A DNA stretch of 64,000 nucleotides from Candidatus Howiella intestinavium. GTDB taxonomy: Bacteria; Bacillota; Clostridia; Oscillospirales; Acutalibacteraceae. The DNA is taken from the NCBI GenBank assembly GCA_904420585.1, contig CAJFVX010000031.1:1-64000 (forward strand), in the 5' to 3' direction. The notes beneath the pieces are model-generated. The model searched no databases. It was not told the origin of the DNA and was given only the letters and a program-made list of their open reading frames with translations. The translations under genes were made by a program, and so were the position numbers. Positions 2,016 through 50,648 of the stretch are shown here, one piece after another. Every line of letters begins with the position of its first letter. Position 1 is the stretch's first letter.

Positions 2016-4493
2016 ATGAAGAAAGTTTCTCACAGACTGTCCCGCTGGATTGCGGGGGCCTTGTCCCTGGGCCTTTTATGCGGCATGACGGTGCTTCCGT
2101 CGTCGGCCCAATCGCCTACCCTGACGCTGGACCGGCAGGAATACGTACAGGGGGATGAGATATTGGCTCATTACACGGGTGCCGGCGGCAAGGACTGGAT
2201 CGCCATTTATAAGGCCGGTGAGGAACCCGGCGGCCCTGCGGCTACGGTATACGAGTATACCTCCAAAACCGGCCAGCCGGACGGCACAATGGATTTTAAG
2301 GATCCCGACCGCGGGAATATAAAGGATTTGGTCCCTGGAGAGTATACGGTTTATTTGCTAAAAGACGACGGCTATGAAATCCTTGCCCAGGCATCCTTTA
2401 CCATGAAGGGCAGCGCAAGCCTGACCATCGATAAGAGCAGTTATCCTGTAGGAGAACGGCCGGTGTTCCAGTATACAGGCAGCACCCATGCGGACGGCTG
2501 GCTGGGCGTCTATGCCGCGGACAACAAAACACCCGGCACGGGCAATCCGGCTTTGGTGTGGCAGTATACCCGGTTTTCCGGGCAGCCGGACGGCTCCACC
2601 GAACTGGAGACGCGGGACAGTTCCTCCCCTACGACCATGGCCCAGCTGCCCCCGGGCGAATACTACGCCTATCTTTTTGCCGACGGGGGCTATACCATAA
2701 TGGCCGCCTGTACCTTTACTCTGGAGGCGCGGGACCCGGCATCCTGCTCTGCCCCTTCCGGCGTGCGCTATAACCGCACGGCCGGGCGCCGGGGCTATGC
2801 CGACGGCACGGTGACTATCAACCGGCCCAGAGGCAGCGCCGAAGGCCTGACCGGATACCGGCTGTATTGGGCGGATGAGGAGGGGGTTCTGCCGGATTAC
2901 ACCTATATTCCGGTAGAGGACAACGGAGAGCGCACAATTGTTCATAAGCTGAACGACAACACCATGATCCCCAGCGGTGCCACCCGGCTGTTTGCCTATG
3001 CGGTGTACGACGGGGATACCCAGTCGCCGGAGGCTTCCGTCTGCCGTCTGCCCGCCGGCAGCGCGGCGGAGGCGGAAGAGCCTTTGTACTCTTTCCAGGT
3101 CCTTTCGGATACCCATATCCAGTCCGACCCGAATCATCTGCACAACCGGCACCTGCGCATGGCCCTGACCGATATTCAGCAGACCGATCCGAACAGTATC
3201 GGCATATTCCATGCAGGCGATTTAACCGATAACGGCGAAACCGGACAGTTCCTGCAGTATACCGAGATTGTCAACAGTTTTGACGACCTGCCTTACATTT
3301 ACTGCACCCCCGGCAACCACGACCTGCGAAACGAAACCTACGATGCGGCCATCGACCGGTTCCTGGAGAATACCAACGCTCCCAACGGGTACTATTCCGA
3401 AAAAATCGGGGATGCCACCTTTATTATGCTGGGCTCTCAGGATCTGGACAACTGGGATTTGGATCGCTCGGCCGCCCATTTGAAGGACGACCAAATCCAA
3501 TTTCTGAAGGACGAACTGGCCAAGGCAGCCGACGGCATGCAGCCCATATTTGTTTTCCTGCACCAGCCGCTGTACAATACCGTATCCGGCAGCCTGCCCG
3601 GCCAGAACTGGCACGGGGTAGACCGGGATGCCGAGATACGGGAAATATTCAAGCAGTATCCCCAGGTCATTTTCTTCACCGGCCACACCCACTGGGAACT
3701 GGATGCCAAAAGCGCCATGTACACGGGCAACGGGACGGATGCCAACATGTTTAACGACGCGTCGGTAGGCTATCTCTGGACCGACGAGGACACCGGCAAG
3801 GAAGGCAGCCAGGGCTACTATGTGGAAGTTTACGCCCACAAGGTGCTGGTCAGGGGCCGGGATTTCGTAAACGGAAAGTGGATACCGGCCGCCCAGTTTA
3901 TTGTGGATATAACCCAGAATATCAAGGGGCTCGCCGCCCAGATTTCCCAAGAGGAAGAAGGTCTCATCGCCCGCATGGCGCAGATAGAACCTCTCCTGTC
4001 GGATATCCAATCCCTGCCGGCCGACCGCAGGGCGGAGTATAAAGCGGAAGAGCAGAAGCTGCAAAAGCTGCTGGAACAGGCGAGGGCGCTGGAGGAGCAG
4101 GCAACATCCCTGGCGGAAGATATAGAGGCCCTTCCCTCCCCGGACGCGGTCGGCCCGCAGGACAAAGCGGCTGTAGATGCCGCCTATACAGCCTATGAAG
4201 CCTTGAACAATGAGCAAAAGGCCCTTCTGGGCGCCGATGCCGTCCAAAAGCTTACCACACTGAAAGAGTTGACCGACGATATGGAAGAACCGGCAGTGCT
4301 TATGGGGGATTTGGATAAAGACGGCAGGGTGACCATAACCGATGTAATGGATGCCTGCAGGATTCTGGCCCGGAAATCCGCCGGTTCCCTCCCCCTTGCC
4401 GACGAGCTGGCCCGGGGTGACCTGGATGAAGATGGAGATATTACCATTAAGGATATAATGGGAATCTGCAGGATCCTGGCGCGCCAGTCATGA
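2016..4493 (+). CDS. Secreted calcineurin-like metallophosphoesterase with C-terminal type I dockerin-like domain
   Basis: Signal peptide; two N-terminal tandem Ig-like repeats; phosphoesterase motifs 'SDTHIQ...GDLTDNG...GNHD...GHTH'; C-terminal pair of EF-hand-like repeats 'GDLDKDGRVTITDVMDACRILAR' and 'GDLDEDGDITIKDIMGICRILAR'. Confidence 0.9.
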   Translation: MKKVSHRLSRWIAGALSLGLLCGMTVLPSSAQSPTLTLDRQEYVQGDEILAHYTGAGGKDWIAIYKAGEEPGGPAATVYEYTSKTGQPDGTMDFKDPDRGNIKDLVPGEYTVYLLKDDGYEILAQASFTMKGSASLTIDKSSYPVGERPVFQYTGSTHADGWLGVYAADNKTPGTGNPALVWQYTRFSGQPDGSTELETRDSSSPTTMAQLPPGEYYAYLFADGGYTIMAACTFTLEARDPASCSAPSGVRYNRTAGRRGYADGTVTINRPRGSAEGLTGYRLYWADEEGVLPDYTYIPVEDNGERTIVHKLNDNTMIPSGATRLFAYAVYDGDTQSPEASVCRLPAGSAAEAEEPLYSFQVLSDTHIQSDPNHLHNRHLRMALTDIQQTDPNSIGIFHAGDLTDNGETGQFLQYTEIVNSFDDLPYIYCTPGNHDLRNETYDAAIDRFLENTNAPNGYYSEKIGDATFIMLGSQDLDNWDLDRSAAHLKDDQIQFLKDELAKAADGMQPIFVFLHQPLYNTVSGSLPGQNWHGVDRDAEIREIFKQYPQVIFFTGHTHWELDAKSAMYTGNGTDANMFNDASVGYLWTDEDTGKEGSQGYYVEVYAHKVLVRGRDFVNGKWIPAAQFIVDITQNIKGLAAQISQEEEGLIARMAQIEPLLSDIQSLPADRRAEYKAEEQKLQKLLEQARALEEQATSLAEDIEALPSPDAVGPQDKAAVDAAYTAYEALNNEQKALLGADAVQKLTTLKELTDDMEEPAVLMGDLDKDGRVTITDVMDACRILARKSAGSLPLADELARGDLDEDGDITIKDIMGICRILARQS

Positions 4494-5525: not shown

Positions 5526-5554
5526 TTGACATATGCGGGTTTTGGCACTATAGT
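5526..5554 (+). promoter_or_regulatory. Sigma-A promoter of the pot operon
   Basis: TTGACA - 17 bp - TATAGT. Confidence 0.8.
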
Positions 5555-5560
5555 AGATGT

Positions 5561-5827
5561 TGCACGTTTTTGCATCTGTGCCGTTTCTCCCCACCGGGGA
5601 GGCAGCGGCCGAAAAAGCAACGTCCGCCCCGCCAAACCGGGACGGGCGCGCGCGGCTTTCACCGGCTGCGCTGTGGCGGTATCAAGTCTCGCGCCGTAGT
5701 TCCTGTCCCTTAGGGGCAAGAGAATTACGAAAAACCCTTTGCGGAGGGCGCCTGACAGAGATATCGCGGGTGTCGTACGGGGCGTCTGCCCCGGCGAAAC
5801 TTTGTGTCCGCAAAGGGGGATGCTAAA
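5561..5827 (+). ncRNA. Long structured 5' leader of potA; candidate translational cis-regulator
   Basis: About 265 nt between predicted TSS and ATG 5828. 11-nt perfect complement CCCTTTGCGGA (5735-5745) to TCCGCAAAGGG (5807-5817) overlapping the SD. Internal hairpins at 5587-5601 and 5779-5792. Confidence 0.5.
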
Positions 5828-6931
5828 ATGACACAAAAGCAGAATATTATCGACCTGAAAGACATCGTGGTAAAGTTTGACGACGAAACCGTCCTCAAGG
5901 GGATTAATCTCTCCATCAAGGACAAGGAATTCGTCACCCTGCTGGGCCCCTCGGGCTGCGGCAAGACTACCACCCTCCGCATCATCGGCGGCTTTGTGCT
6001 GCCCGACGAGGGGGAGATTTTCTTTGAGGGCAAAAAAATCAATGGTGTTCCGCCTTACAAGAGGCAGGTTAACACCATTTTTCAGCGTTATGCTCTTTTT
6101 CCGCATCTGAACGTATACGAGAACGTGGCCTTCGGCCTGCGGATTAAAAAGCGGCCGGAGAAGGAAATCCGCACAAGGGTGAAGGAGATGCTGGCCCTTG
6201 TGGGTCTGCAGGGCTACGAGCGCCGCAACATCGACGCCCTGTCGGGCGGCCAGCAGCAGCGGGTAGCCATCGCCCGGGCGGTCATCAACCAGCCCAAGGT
6301 CCTTTTGCTGGACGAGCCACTGGCCGCGCTGGATTTAAAGCTGCGCAAGGAGATGCAGGTGGAGCTGAAGAAAATCCAGCAGAGCCTGGGTATCACCTTC
6401 GTCTATGTCACCCATGACCAGGAAGAGGCCCTGACCATGTCGGATACGGTGGTGGTCATGAACCACGGCGTCATCCAGCAGATCGGCACGCCTCAGGATA
6501 TATACAACGAGCCCCAGAACGCCTTTGTGGCCGACTTTATCGGCGAGTCCAACATTGTGGACGGGGTTATGCCCGAAGATCTGCGGGTGCAGTTTTTGGG
6601 CCGGGATTTTGTCTGCGTGGACAAGGGCTTCGCCCCCGATGAGCCGGTAGACGTGGTCATCCGCCCCGAGGATATCAAGGTGGTCCCCCCCGCTGAGGGA
6701 CAGTTCACCGGACAGGTGGATACCGTCACCTTCAAGGGCGTACACTACGAAATGATCGTCAAGGTGGAGGGTAAGGACTGGATGATCCATTCCACCAAGT
6801 GCGAGGAGCCGGGGGCGGTTATCGGCATGCGGGTGGATCCCTTTGACATCCACATCATGCACAAGTCCGACGAGCCCATTTACCGGGACGACGACCCCTC
6901 CACCGTGATTGACGAGGAGGCCGTGCAGTGA
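5828..6931 (+). CDS. potA: Spermidine/putrescine ABC transporter ATP-binding protein
   Basis: Walker [10 protein letters not shown], signature [14 protein letters not shown], Walker [13 protein letters not shown]-terminal TOBE-like region. Confidence 0.95.
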
Positions 6932-7740
6932 AAAGCAAGTGGATTGCCGCGCCCTACCTTGTCTGGATGGGGATTTTCATTATCGTCCCCCTGCTCATTG
7001 TGGTGTACTTTGCTTTCACTACAGCCGATGGGGGCTTTACTTTCAACAATATCGCCCAGGTGGGGCAGTACAGCGAAGCCATCTTTAAGTCCATCCTGCT
7101 GGGAATTGTCGCCACCGCCGTCTGCCTGCTGCTGGGGTATCCTTTGGGCTATATCATCGCCCGCTCCACCGTACGCCGGCAGCGCACCATGGTGCTGCTG
7201 ACCATGCTGCCCATGTGGATGAATTTCCTGCTGCGGACCTATGCCTGGATGACCATACTGGAAAACAACGGGCTTATCAACCGGTTTTTAAACGCCATCG
7301 GCCTGGGGAGCCTGCCCCTTATCAACAATTCCGGCGCGGTGGTGCTGGGCATGGTGTACAACTTCCTGCCCTTTATGATCATGCCCATCTACTCGGTCAT
7401 GGCCAAAATCGACCGGCGGGTCATCGAGGCCGCCGAGGATTTGGGCGCCAACCGGCTGCAGGTCTTTAAGAAGGTGCTGCTGCCTTTAAGCTTTCCCGGC
7501 ATCGCCACCGGCATCACCATGGTGTTTGTGCCCGCCGTCAGCACCTTTGTCATCTCCCGTATGCTGGGGGGCGGCGATATGCTCATCGGCGACATCATTG
7601 AAATGCAGTTTGTGGGTTCCACCTATAACCCCTATGTGGGCTCGGCCCTGTCTTTGGTGCTCATGGTTCTGGTCTTTATCTGCATGGCCGTCATGCGCCA
7701 GTTCGGCAGCGATGAGGAAAGCGAGGCGATGATGCCGTGA
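6928..7740 (+). CDS. potB: Spermidine/putrescine ABC transporter permease (GTG start)
   Basis: Multi-TM permease with EAA-loop '[26 protein letters not shown]'. 4-bp overlap with potA. Confidence 0.92.
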
Positions 7741-8561
7741 AGGTGCTCTCCCGTATCTACACCGCCCTTATTTTTATCTTTCTGTACGCGCCCATCCTTA
7801 TCCTGATTGTCTTTTCCTTCAACGACACCAAGAGCCGCAATGTCTGGAGCGGCTTTACCCTGGAGTGGTATCAGAAGCTGTTTCAGGATTCCCAGATTAT
7901 GGACGCCCTGAAAAACACCCTGATTGTAGCCGTGGTTTCGGCCCTGGCGGCCACCCTTATCGGCACCATGGCCGCCGTGGGCATCCAGGCCTTGGGCAAG
8001 CGGGCCCGGGGAATCGTCATGACCTTTACCAATATCCCCATGGTCAACCCGGAAATCGTCACGGGCGTCTCCCTTATGCTCTTGTTTGTGCTGGGCTTTA
8101 CCCTTATCGGCAAAACCGGCGTACAGATGGGGCTGGGCCTGCCCACCCTTATCCTGGCCCATATCACCTTTAACATTCCCTATGTCATCCTGTCGGTGCT
8201 GCCCAAGCTGCGGCAGATGAACCAGCACACCTACGAGGCTGCCCTGGATTTGGGCTGCCATCCCCTGCCCGCCTTTTTCAAGGTGGTGCTGCCCGAAATC
8301 ATGCCGGGGGTCATGACCGGGCTGCTCATGGCCTTTACCCTCTCCATCGACGACTTTGTCATCAGCTATTTCTGCTCCGGCCCCACCTCCCAGACCCTGC
8401 CGGTGCTTATCTACTCCATGACCCGCAGACAGGTGAACCCCAAAATCAACGCCCTGTCGGCCCTGCTGTTCGTCACGGTGCTGGCCCTGCTGCTGATTGT
8501 AAACATCCGGCAGTTAAAGGATCAGGACAAGGCGGCCAAGCGGCAGAAAAAGCGGGCTTAA
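7737..8561 (+). CDS. potC: Spermidine/putrescine ABC transporter permease (GTG start)
   Basis: EAA-loop 'EAALDLGCHPLPAFFKVVLPEIMPGV'. 4-bp overlap with potB. Confidence 0.92.
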   Translation: MKVLSRIYTALIFIFLYAPILILIVFSFNDTKSRNVWSGFTLEWYQKLFQDSQIMDALKNTLIVAVVSALAATLIGTMAAVGIQALGKRARGIVMTFTNIPMVNPEIVTGVSLMLLFVLGFTLIGKTGVQMGLGLPTLILAHITFNIPYVILSVLPKLRQMNQHTYEAALDLGCHPLPAFFKVVLPEIMPGVMTGLLMAFTLSIDDFVISYFCSGPTSQTLPVLIYSMTRRQVNPKINALSALLFVTVLALLLIVNIRQLKDQDKAAKRQKKRA

Positions 8562-8627
8562 GGCCCCCCTACCCTTGTTTTATTGCAGCTTTGCGATAAA
8601 AAATCCAATAAAGAGAGAGGTTCAGAG

Positions 8628-9854
8628 ATGAAAAAATCCATCGCCGCGCTGGCCGCGGCCACCCTGCTCACCGGTATGCTTCTGCTGCCGGCCGGGGCTT
8701 CCGCCGAATCGGAGGCCGCCGAACCCCTGCTTGACGAAAACGGCAACCAGGTGGAAATCAACGTGTACAACTGGGGAGAGTATATCTCCACGGGCGAGGA
8801 CGGCTCCTTGGACGTCAACGCCGAATTTACCCGGCGGACGGGCATCAAGGTCAACTACACCACCTTTGAAACCAACGAGTCCCTCTATGCCAAGCTGAAA
8901 AGCAGCGGCGAATCCTACGACGTCATCATTCCCTCCGACTACATGATCGCCCGGATGATTGAGGAGGATATGCTGGCGCCCCTGGATTTTTCCAACATCC
9001 CCAATTTCGATAAAATCGCAGACCGCTTTAAAGAAGACTGCGAATACGACCCGGGCAACCAGTATTCCGTCCCCTATACCTACGGGCAGGTGGGCATCCT
9101 CTACAACGACGAGATGGTCACCGAAACGGTGGACAGCTGGGATATCCTCTGGGATGAAAAGTACGAGGGCCAGATCCTCATGTTCAGCAACTGGCGGGAC
9201 GCCTTCGGCATCGCCCAAAAGCGGCTGGGCTACTCCTTCAACTCCACCAACATGGACGAGTGGAACGCCGCGGCCGATTCCCTGCGGGAGCAGAAGCCTC
9301 TGGTGCAGGCCTACGTCATGGACCAGATTTTCGATAAGATGGGCGGCGGCGAGGCTGCGCTGGCTCCCTATTACGCCGGCGACGCCCTGACCATCCACAG
9401 CAACAACGAGCACATCCAGTTTGCCGTTCCCAAGGAGGGCACCAACCTGTTTGTGGACGCCATGTGCATCCCCAAGAACTGCAACAACAAGGAAGCGGCC
9501 GAGGCCTACATCAACTTTATGTGCGAAACCGATGTGGCCACCGATAACATCGAGTACATCTCCTATGCCTCCCCCCAGGAAGAAGCGGCGGCGGCCCATG
9601 CCGAGTACCTACGGGAGGAATACGGCGACTGGGCGGTGGATATCATCTATCCCAGTACCAGCGGGGAAAACGACGAGGTATTCCTGAACCTGCCCGAGGA
9701 TGTGAACACCCAGGTGGAAAACATCTGGATTGAAATCCAGGGCAGCGGCGGCGGCGTCATATACATCGTCCTGACGGTGGTCATCCTGGTGGTGCTGGCC
9801 GGCGGCATTGTCTTCTTCCGGGTGCGCAAGCATATGCGGGAAAAGGAACTGTAA
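8628..9854 (+). CDS. potD: Spermidine/putrescine-binding protein with C-terminal membrane anchor
   Basis: PotD-like 'LDENGNQVEINVYNWGEYIS...'. Signal peptide without lipobox Cys; C-terminal TM 'VIYIVLTVVILVVLAGGIVFF'. Confidence 0.92.
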   Translation: MKKSIAALAAATLLTGMLLLPAGASAESEAAEPLLDENGNQVEINVYNWGEYISTGEDGSLDVNAEFTRRTGIKVNYTTFETNESLYAKLKSSGESYDVIIPSDYMIARMIEEDMLAPLDFSNIPNFDKIADRFKEDCEYDPGNQYSVPYTYGQVGILYNDEMVTETVDSWDILWDEKYEGQILMFSNWRDAFGIAQKRLGYSFNSTNMDEWNAAADSLREQKPLVQAYVMDQIFDKMGGGEAALAPYYAGDALTIHSNNEHIQFAVPKEGTNLFVDAMCIPKNCNNKEAAEAYINFMCETDVATDNIEYISYASPQEEAAAAHAEYLREEYGDWAVDIIYPSTSGENDEVFLNLPEDVNTQVENIWIEIQGSGGGVIYIVLTVVILVVLAGGIVFFRVRKHMREKEL

Positions 9855-48943: not shown

Positions 48944-50326
48944 TTATACCTCCTGGCCGGGAACCTGAGGCAGGGAGGCAAAGCCCCGTTCCAAATCCTC
49001 GTCGGTGGGGATATAGTCGGTCATGGTGCCGTCATGGTAGGAGGCATAGGCGGTCATATCGAAATAGCCGGTGCCGGTCAGGCCAAAGAGGATGGTTTTG
49101 GCCTCCCCCGCCTCCCGGCAGCGGATGGCCTCGTCGATGGCCACCCGGATGGCGTGGGAGGACTCGGGGGCGGGCAGGATGGATTCCTGCCGGGCGAAGA
49201 GGGTAGCCGCCTCAAACACCTTGGTCTGCTCCACCGCCCGGGCCTCGTCCAGGTACCCGTCGTGGTAGAGTTTGCTGAGGGTGGGGGACATGCCGTGGTA
49301 CCGCAGGCCGCCGGCATGGTTGGGCGAGGGCAGGAATTCGCACCCTAAGGTGTACATCTTGGCCAGGGGGGTGATGCGGCCGGTGTCGCAGAAGTCGTAG
49401 GCGTACCTGCCCCGGGTCAGGGAGGGGCAGGAGGCCGGCTCCACGGCGATGAAATGGGGGTTCCGCTTACCCTGGAGCTTATCCTGCATAAAGGCGCCCA
49501 TGAGACCGCCCAGGTTGGAGCCGCCGCCGGCGCAGCCGATGATGATGTCAGGGTACTCGTCCACCATCTCCATGGCCGCCTTGGCCTCCAGGCCGATGAC
49601 CGACTGATGCAGCAGCACCTGGTCCAGCACCGAGCCCAGCACATACCGGCAGCCCTCGGTTTTCACGGCCGTTTCCACAGCCTCGGAAATGGCGCAGCCC
49701 AGGCTCCCCCCCGTCTCGGGGTACTTGGCCAGGATGGCCCGGCCGGCCTCGGTGGTATCGCTGGGGCTGGGGATGATATTGGCCCCGAAGGTCTGCATGA
49801 CCGATTTGCGGTAGGGCTTCTGGTTGTAGCTGGTCTTGACCATATAGACGGTCAAATCCAGCCCGAAGTAGGCGCAGGCCATGGCCAAGGCGGTGCCCCA
49901 CTGGCCGGCGCCGGTCTCGGTGGTGAGGGAGGTCAGTCCCTGCTCCTTGGCGTAGTAGGCCTGGGCCGCCGCCGAATTCAGCTTGTGGCTGCCCGAGGTG
50001 TTGTTGCCCTCGAACTTATAATAGATGCGGGCCGGGGTGTCCAGCGCTTTCTCCAGATTGTAGGCCCGGATTAAGGGGGAGGGACGGTAGACCTTGTAAT
50101 ATTCCTGGATTTCCTCCGGGATGTCGATATACCGGTCGGTGGCGTTCAACTCCTGGGCCGCCAGCTTTTCGCAGAAGATGGGATACAAATCCTTTTCCTC
50201 CAGGGGCTGGCCGTTGGCCGGATTCAGCAAAGGCTCGTGCTGGGCCTTCATATCCGCCTTGACATTGTACCACTGCTTCGGGATCTGATCCTCGGGCAAA
50301 TAGATTCGATAGGGGATTTTCGGCAT
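48944..50326 (-). CDS. trpB2: TrpB-like (TrpB2-type) tryptophan synthase beta subunit
   Basis: PLP-Lys region 'EGNNTSGSHKLNSA', 'ETGAGQWGTALAMACA', 'IIGCAGGGSNLGGLMGAF', extended N-terminus typical of TrpB2. Confidence 0.9.
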   Translation of the reverse strand: MPKIPYRIYLPEDQIPKQWYNVKADMKAQHEPLLNPANGQPLEEKDLYPIFCEKLAAQELNATDRYIDIPEEIQEYYKVYRPSPLIRAYNLEKALDTPARIYYKFEGNNTSGSHKLNSAAAQAYYAKEQGLTSLTTETGAGQWGTALAMACAYFGLDLTVYMVKTSYNQKPYRKSVMQTFGANIIPSPSDTTEAGRAILAKYPETGGSLGCAISEAVETAVKTEGCRYVLGSVLDQVLLHQSVIGLEAKAAMEMVDEYPDIIIGCAGGGSNLGGLMGAFMQDKLQGKRNPHFIAVEPASCPSLTRGRYAYDFCDTGRITPLAKMYTLGCEFLPSPNHAGGLRYHGMSPTLSKLYHDGYLDEARAVEQTKVFEAATLFARQESILPAPESSHAIRVAIDEAIRCREAGEAKTILFGLTGTGYFDMTAYASYHDGTMTDYIPTDEDLERGFASLPQVPGQEV

Positions 50327-50370
50327 GGTTTTTCTCTCCTTTCGGCAATTGGCCAGGCTTTTACACAGCA

Positions 50371-50648
50371 AAAAACGCTCCTGTCCCCTCTAACAGGGAC
50401 AGGAGCGTAAAATTCCTGCGGTGCCACCCATATTGACACATAATGTGCCCACTCATCTGCATACCAACATATGCGTCCGGCGGTAACGTGCCGGCCATCC
50501 GTCGGCGCCTACTCCGCTGACGCGTTTGGGGCCGCCCTCCCCGGGCCATTCCATCCGCCGGCACGATACCGCGCTCCCAGCAAATGCGCGGCTCTCTTGC
50601 ATCGGTCCAAACGGTGTACTTCTCCGGGTCACAGGTTTCCTTTGGTTT
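50371..50648 (-). ncRNA. T-box leader, predicted specifier UGG (Trp)
   Basis: Minus strand 'GGAGAAGTACACC', 'AGAGAGCCGCG', T-box 'GGGTGGCACCGCAGG', then terminator ACGCTCCTGTCCC...GGGACAGGAGCGT + TTTTT. UGG at 50546-50548; UGGC bulge fits discriminator G73 of tRNA-Trp. Confidence 0.92.

Follow-up and report, generated by a model that had tools for sequence, protein, structure and literature searches.

What is the function of the 267-nt leader (5561-5827) that precedes the start codon of potA (ATG 5828) in Candidatus Howiella intestinavium, and in which the Shine-Dalgarno sequence lies within the complement of an upstream segment? The window, i.e. the whole stretch of DNA analysed here, comprises 64,000 nucleotides of contig CAJFVX010000031.1, and all positions refer to it. 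The genes following the leader are:

5828-6931, plus strand: potA, the regulated gene, encoding the ATPase of a polyamine ABC transporter (TIGR01187 and NF043075 above cut-off)
6928-9854, plus strand: the rest of the operon, with potB at 6928-7740, potC at 7737-8561 and potD from about 8628 to 9854

PotA scores 365 bits against TIGR01187 (cut-off 355.6) and 570 against NF043075 (cut-off 550), PotB, PotC and PotD fall short of the strict cut-offs in their matches to the respective families of permeases and binding proteins, and the best solved relatives of PotD are spermidine/putrescine-binding proteins; the operon was thereby confirmed as the polyamine importer potABCD. The genome of the window, which is 83% complete, contains one Orn/Lys/Arg decarboxylase-type protein. 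Polyamine import matters to this organism, since the spermidine synthase (PF01564) and SAM decarboxylase (PF02675) families were not found in that genome.

An earlier note on this stretch had proposed that a near-consensus promoter gives rise to a long potA leader, in which CCCTTTGCGGA (5735-5745) is fully complementary to TCCGCAAAGGG (5807-5817) and the latter runs into the Shine-Dalgarno sequence AAAGGGGG; promoter, leader and complementarity are all present in the sequence. The elements at the two ends of the leader and around the complementary arms are:

5526-5554, plus strand: promoter predicted from sequence, with TTGACA at 5526-5531, a 17-nt spacer and TATAGT at 5549-5554
5572-5576, plus strand: P0a, 5'-end GCAUC of the RNA, proposed to pair with GAUGC at 5819-5823
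5587-5601, plus strand: local hairpin CTCCCC/GGGGAG outside the conserved core, absent from the nearest relative (L002) and from other homologues
5730-5734, plus strand: A-rich joining strand just 5' of P1a, conserved in the alignments
5735-5745, plus strand: P1a, CCCUUUGCGGA, 5' arm of the masking helix
5807-5817, plus strand: P1b, UCCGCAAAGGG, 3' arm of the masking helix, assigned by pairing and duplex energy and holding most of the Shine-Dalgarno sequence AAAGGGGG
5819-5823, plus strand: P0b, GAUGC between the Shine-Dalgarno sequence and the start codon (GATG invariant in A3)

Transcription would start at about 5561, and a similar promoter with conserved -35 and -10 boxes is located ahead of most homologous leaders. 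The Shine-Dalgarno sequence occupies 5812-5819, eight nt ahead of ATG 5828, and overlaps the 3' arm of P1. A PotA start at GTG 5804 was ruled out, as the conserved Shine-Dalgarno sequence and its spacing favour ATG 5828.

That the complementarity arose by chance in a G+C-rich leader and has no function is the simplest explanation, and it can point to the fact that a perfect long-range inverted repeat of at least 11 bp occurred in 1.55% of 2000 dinucleotide-preserving shuffles of the 267-nt leader (the earlier note had guessed about 0.01, which is about right) and that long G+C-rich leaders fold well anyway. The predicted folding energy of the leader is -135.8 kcal/mol (z -4.98 against shuffles, i.e. 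far better than shuffled) in a plain nested prediction, which conceals the pseudoknot described below, and an exact upstream complement of the Shine-Dalgarno arm was found in none of the 2000 shuffled leaders. Chance is nevertheless left with practically no probability, being already refuted by the conservation of the element in about 84 leaders and by the compensatory changes in its helices.

This conservation was followed through increasingly wide sets of genomes. When 60 relatives were searched at the nucleotide level, the leader was detected ahead of potA in several genera belonging to the same family. A covariance model of the 3' core (R1), run over 394 genomes of the order, many of the genomes searched being MAGs and the E-values of the models being rough, gave matches in 31 genomes, 26 of which were genuine by inspection, and all 26 are located directly before a PotA reading frame. 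When the exact pattern of both P1 arms was searched in 84,980 genomes, one for each named species, at least 80 loci were obtained, at least about 57 of them genuine; these belong to Caproiciproducens faecalis, C. galactitolivorans, Gemmiger, Faecalibacterium, many Oscillospiraceae/Ruminococcaceae and MAGs of Clostridia. The remaining loci are chance matches, many of them in other phyla, without GATGC and without potA. An improved model (R2) was applied to 391 genomes from the class and 349 from the phylum. It yielded credible copies in class members of other families, every one before potA, and found none elsewhere in the phylum (349 genomes). Altogether at least 87 elements from Clostridia were collected, about 84 of them distinct, and potA follows directly in all but one (L141, the only element without a PotA frame behind it). 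In the genome of the window the motif is present in a single copy. The view of the leader as a long, structured and conserved RNA that masks the Shine-Dalgarno sequence of a polyamine-importer operon is thus supported across genera and families.

Of the 394 order genomes, 290 encode a PotB relative and only about a tenth of these contain the motif, which therefore controls a minority of the pot operons. The other pot leaders of the order lack the motif, which argues against its being a by-product of potA coding. Divergent copies before potA that the model had missed were recognised by eye in four leaders (L208, L219, L225 and L232), so that the counts given understate the true range. In three potA leaders of another genus (g79; L216, L220 and L222) the motif is absent; they share a different long conserved sequence before potA, GCAGTAAGCGGCGAAAGTCACGCTCTGAAACGGAACGCC...TTCGAGGAATATTCCTC, possibly a different pot leader element. 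Weak model matches (L067-L070, L197-L202 and L233 of the window's own genome) were discarded as coding sequence or simple hairpins without potA, and a search with a 14-nt pattern allowing one mismatch was set aside because the pattern was too short and returned mostly chance sites.

The masking helix P1 itself is strongly conserved. When its arms were examined for conservation and covariation, 99.1% of the cells were found to pair over 47 diverse leaders; four pairs are invariant, three vary by G-U only and three show compensatory, two-sided change. The compensatory changes (GCGG/CCGC to GUCA/UGAC) occur only in two related leaders, L046 and L051, and probably represent one event. Both arms are unusually fixed in sequence, even at positions that ribosome binding does not need, and at the sequence level the Shine-Dalgarno sequence lies inside P1b in every element. 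The duplex of P1a and P1b has a calculated energy of -19.5 kcal/mol, which is long for a reversible switch. A very stable helix covering the Shine-Dalgarno sequence is what would be expected of a ligand-independent attenuator or a thermosensor, in which the knot would set a low or temperature-dependent level of potA translation without specific sensing, and general effects of polyamines or Mg2+ on RNA folding could modulate such a knot without a binding pocket. We consider this unlikely, as attenuation needs P1 alone and leaves unexplained the P4/P5 pseudoknot, the joining nucleotides and the 5'-end element, which are kept in many genera. The helices of this core in the window are:

5676-5683, plus strand: P5a, GCGGUAUC, pairing with 5760-5767
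5686-5695, plus strand: P4a, GUC-UC-GCGCC, pairing with 5747-5756 around a 2x2 internal loop, a helix that is predicted to fold when P1 is masked
5696-5728, plus strand: P2, hairpin GUAGUUC/GAAUUAC (5696-5702 with 5722-5728), at the same place in homologues
5747-5756, plus strand: P4b, GGCGC-CU-GAC, pairing with 5686-5695
5760-5767, plus strand: P5b, GAUAUCGC, pairing with 5676-5683
5778-5793, plus strand: P3, hairpin of GGGGC (5779-5783) and GCCCC (5788-5792) inside the P1 interval, a hairpin being present here in all types

In group alignments, the strand that directly follows P1a on its 3' side was seen to pair with a segment upstream of the P2 hairpin, and equivalents of the resulting P4/P5 helices are found in L003 (GUCCUGCACC/GGUGCGGGAC), L102 (GCAUAAUC/GAUUAUGC), L002 (GCGGCGUC/GAUGCCGC) and L048 (CACAAAAUGC/GCGUUUUGUG). 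P1a is located in the loop of the P4/P5 hairpin and pairs outside it, so that P1 and P4/P5 cross and form a pseudoknot; no nucleotide is common to both, and the two can coexist. The earlier note was therefore right about a structured leader that masks the Shine-Dalgarno sequence and incomplete as to its architecture, since it described a nested helix with separate hairpins and the covarying core is a pseudoknot of P1 and P4/P5. Among the three hairpins it had named, those at 5694-5730 (P2) and 5779-5792 (P3) are at positions conserved in homologues, whereas the one at 5587-5601 is present and not conserved.

The evidence for the core comes from covariation, counted on structure-blind alignments for helices that were first called by eye and then tested. 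In the group of the window (nine leaders), 94.4% of the P5 cells are paired and five of eight pairs have changed on both sides; P4 reaches 68.6% there, because the alignment places four leaders one base out of register. In group C (13 leaders), the paired fraction is 98.9% for P4 (two-sided change in three of seven pairs), 88.3% for P5 (five of nine) and 89.7% for P2 (three of six), and P4 covaries in groups A, B and C. The covariation score of P4/P5 was reached by none of 500 shuffles, and slid registers drop to 38-54% paired. In a model-free ranking of all variable column pairs (thousands), pairs of P5, P4 and P3 are at or near the top, the inner pair of P3 being the top covarying pair of group A, and so are the extra hairpins of the type B leaders. 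With P1a masked, the crossing helix next to it folds in 95% of 79 leaders against 49% with dinucleotide-shuffled upstream sequence (Wilcoxon p 6e-12); this null is raised by the high G+C content of many leaders, and covariation is therefore the stronger argument. The helices P1, P2, P3, P4 and P5, their conservation and their tie to potA are established at the level of sequence comparison.

A further pairing may link the two ends of the leader. The sequence GC[AG]TC[TG] follows the start site in most of the 87 leaders, typically 13-50 nt past the -10 box, and GCAUC at this place could pair with GAUGC next to the Shine-Dalgarno sequence. This helix (P0) hardly varies, i.e. it is conserved rather than covarying; L059 has GCGUC and keeps pairing via G-U, and in a G-U-tolerant control random 5-mers pair in 40% of cases. 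P0 is a plausible candidate helix for which conservation provides the argument.

In type B leaders (e.g. L048, L054, L057 and L122), a conserved extra junction is inserted between P5 and P4; it consists of CAGUUCC-GAACA-GGAACCGU, a variable hairpin and UGAGAAACCGU, is absent in the type of the window and may be part of a sensing domain. As the types differ in their joining regions (J4/5, P3 and the extra hairpins of type B), it is not obvious that they share one conserved ligand pocket. The variation of the joining regions between types, together with P1 arms fixed beyond the needs of ribosome binding, as a sequence-reading protein would impose, would suit a pseudoknot that serves as the site for a regulatory protein, perhaps one reporting polyamine status, which locks or opens the knot while no small molecule contacts the RNA. 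For such a site, however, the pseudoknot is large and elaborate, with conserved junctions, and it has a single target gene per genome; to our knowledge, moreover, these bacteria have no known RNA-binding regulator of this kind. We attach a low probability to control by a protein.

Control by a leader peptide, in which polyamine-dependent stalling in a small frame would alter the fold of the leader, is used by polyamine genes elsewhere, e.g. in the uORF-based odc1 element (PMC8632094), yet it appears very improbable here and a conserved leader peptide was rejected: an ORF of at least eight codons preceded by a Shine-Dalgarno sequence exists in just 20 of 87 leaders, the spacing of the core is not kept modulo 3, and the alignments show no conserved start codon. 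Transcription termination was likewise rejected as the output, no terminator being seen in the leaders inspected by eye and the Shine-Dalgarno sequence being masked in every element.

The leader probably functions as a switch that reduces polyamine uptake. In the mechanism that we propose, P5 and P4 form a long interrupted hairpin whose loop presents P1a for pairing with 5807-5817, and the Shine-Dalgarno sequence is buried because P1b, which holds it, is part of the pseudoknot; the GAUGC spacer beside it is probably paired with the 5'-end GCAUC, which would help to bury the ribosome-binding site. As long as the knot is stable, ribosomes would be unable to start on potA (OFF); when it is unstable, P1a could fold on itself (CCCUU-UGCG-GAGGG) and free the Shine-Dalgarno sequence (ON). 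This local hairpin, CCCUU(UGCG)GAGGG at 5735-5748, has a predicted energy of -5.7 kcal/mol in the window and of -2 kcal/mol or lower in 71 of 87 leaders, and in L004 a G-to-A change breaks one P1 pair and makes the local hairpin fully Watson-Crick, which together suggest two alternative states, the knot (OFF) and the local hairpin (ON). A ligand binding to the pseudoknot core could tip the balance between them. Most likely the trigger would be a polyamine (spermidine or putrescine) that binds the RNA directly, so that uptake would be lowered when polyamines are plentiful. We infer ligand binding, the polyamine as ligand and the direction of the switch, the polyamine idea coming from gene association: it is the natural candidate because the element precedes a polyamine importer and because the families for spermidine synthesis named above were not found in the genome.

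Rfam 15 contains no family that matches the leader (cmscan, E up to 10, nothing relevant), just as the earlier note had been unable to place it in a riboswitch class. A SAM family, as a SAM-I fold would give, was detected neither in the leader (E up to 10) nor in 16 homologous loci, nor at E up to 5 in L057 and L044, and the covariance models of preQ1 and other pseudoknot riboswitches in Rfam 15 gave no match. Two properties by which riboswitches are recognised are present, namely a conserved structured RNA in 5' leaders of one pathway (about 84 leaders, covarying helices) and an expression platform tied to the conserved structure. The leader works like a pseudoknot riboswitch that masks the Shine-Dalgarno sequence and belongs to none of the families tested; it represents a previously uncatalogued RNA class, absent from Rfam and possibly described elsewhere. 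That this new class of translation-controlling pseudoknot leaders of potABCD is most likely an OFF riboswitch for a polyamine is the reading which we favour, with confidence somewhat above even; the more specific proposal of a new polyamine riboswitch class, i.e. a large pseudoknotted aptamer that shuts import at the level of translation in Clostridia including Faecalibacterium and Gemmiger, is held more tentatively, at slightly less than even confidence.

Nearly every RNA is bound by polyamines, and proposals of polyamine riboswitches have met with lasting doubt. Only one class has been accepted, a rare variant of the SAM-I riboswitch with a four-stem fold; it is known from 13 examples in Bacillus-like genera, where it precedes genes for polyamine synthesis and controls transcription termination (Salvail et al. 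2023, PMC10853860). Like the potA leader, this spermidine riboswitch is a bacterial leader RNA linked to polyamine genes with an expected OFF function; unlike it, the potA leader is an unrelated pseudoknot that masks the Shine-Dalgarno sequence, is associated with potA only and has no SAM-I match in Rfam. Several of the preQ1 riboswitches (classes I-III) bury the Shine-Dalgarno sequence in a pseudoknot and thereby stop translation (review PMC11625349), which they share with the potA leader, but they are much smaller, have another consensus and precede queuosine genes. Candidate cis-acting RNAs before polyamine genes have also come from comparative genomics in the form of the potE motif, found in Veillonella about 200 nt from an antiporter gene with weak covariation and no clear expression platform, and of the uORF-based odc1 motif of ornithine decarboxylase (Brewer et al. 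2021, PMC8632094). The potA leader differs from both by its gene, the adjacent masking of the Shine-Dalgarno sequence, strong covariation and another lineage, the potE motif being set apart by its description (gene, lineage and distance to the gene). In Borrelia burgdorferi, excess spermidine lowers potABCD mRNA after transcription initiation; this control acts inside the potB reading frame via internal 3' ends, and no leader pseudoknot is described (PMC10319736). In the polyamine modulon of E. coli (e.g. PMC7177335), polyamines act on translation via mRNA structure near the Shine-Dalgarno sequence, in short individual structures which are not known to form a conserved family, whereas the potA leader is a conserved pseudoknot class.

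An unrelated, well-covarying RNA class at the polyamine importer of common gut bacteria provides a defined object for tests of polyamine sensing, comprising a consensus structure, about 84 sequences and compact members. If the proposed function holds, it would show how these bacteria adjust polyamine uptake; should the ligand not be a polyamine, the leader would still represent a structured RNA family that is uncatalogued and has a clear output at the level of translation.

Two further observations concern other parts of the window. The protein encoded at 2016-4493 (plus strand) is metallophosphoesterase-like and secreted, with a weak dockerin-like match at its C-terminus, and an ordinary-looking T-box leader (RF00230, 94.4 bits) is located at 50392-50641 (minus strand), upstream of a tryptophan synthase beta-like gene (48944-50371, minus strand).
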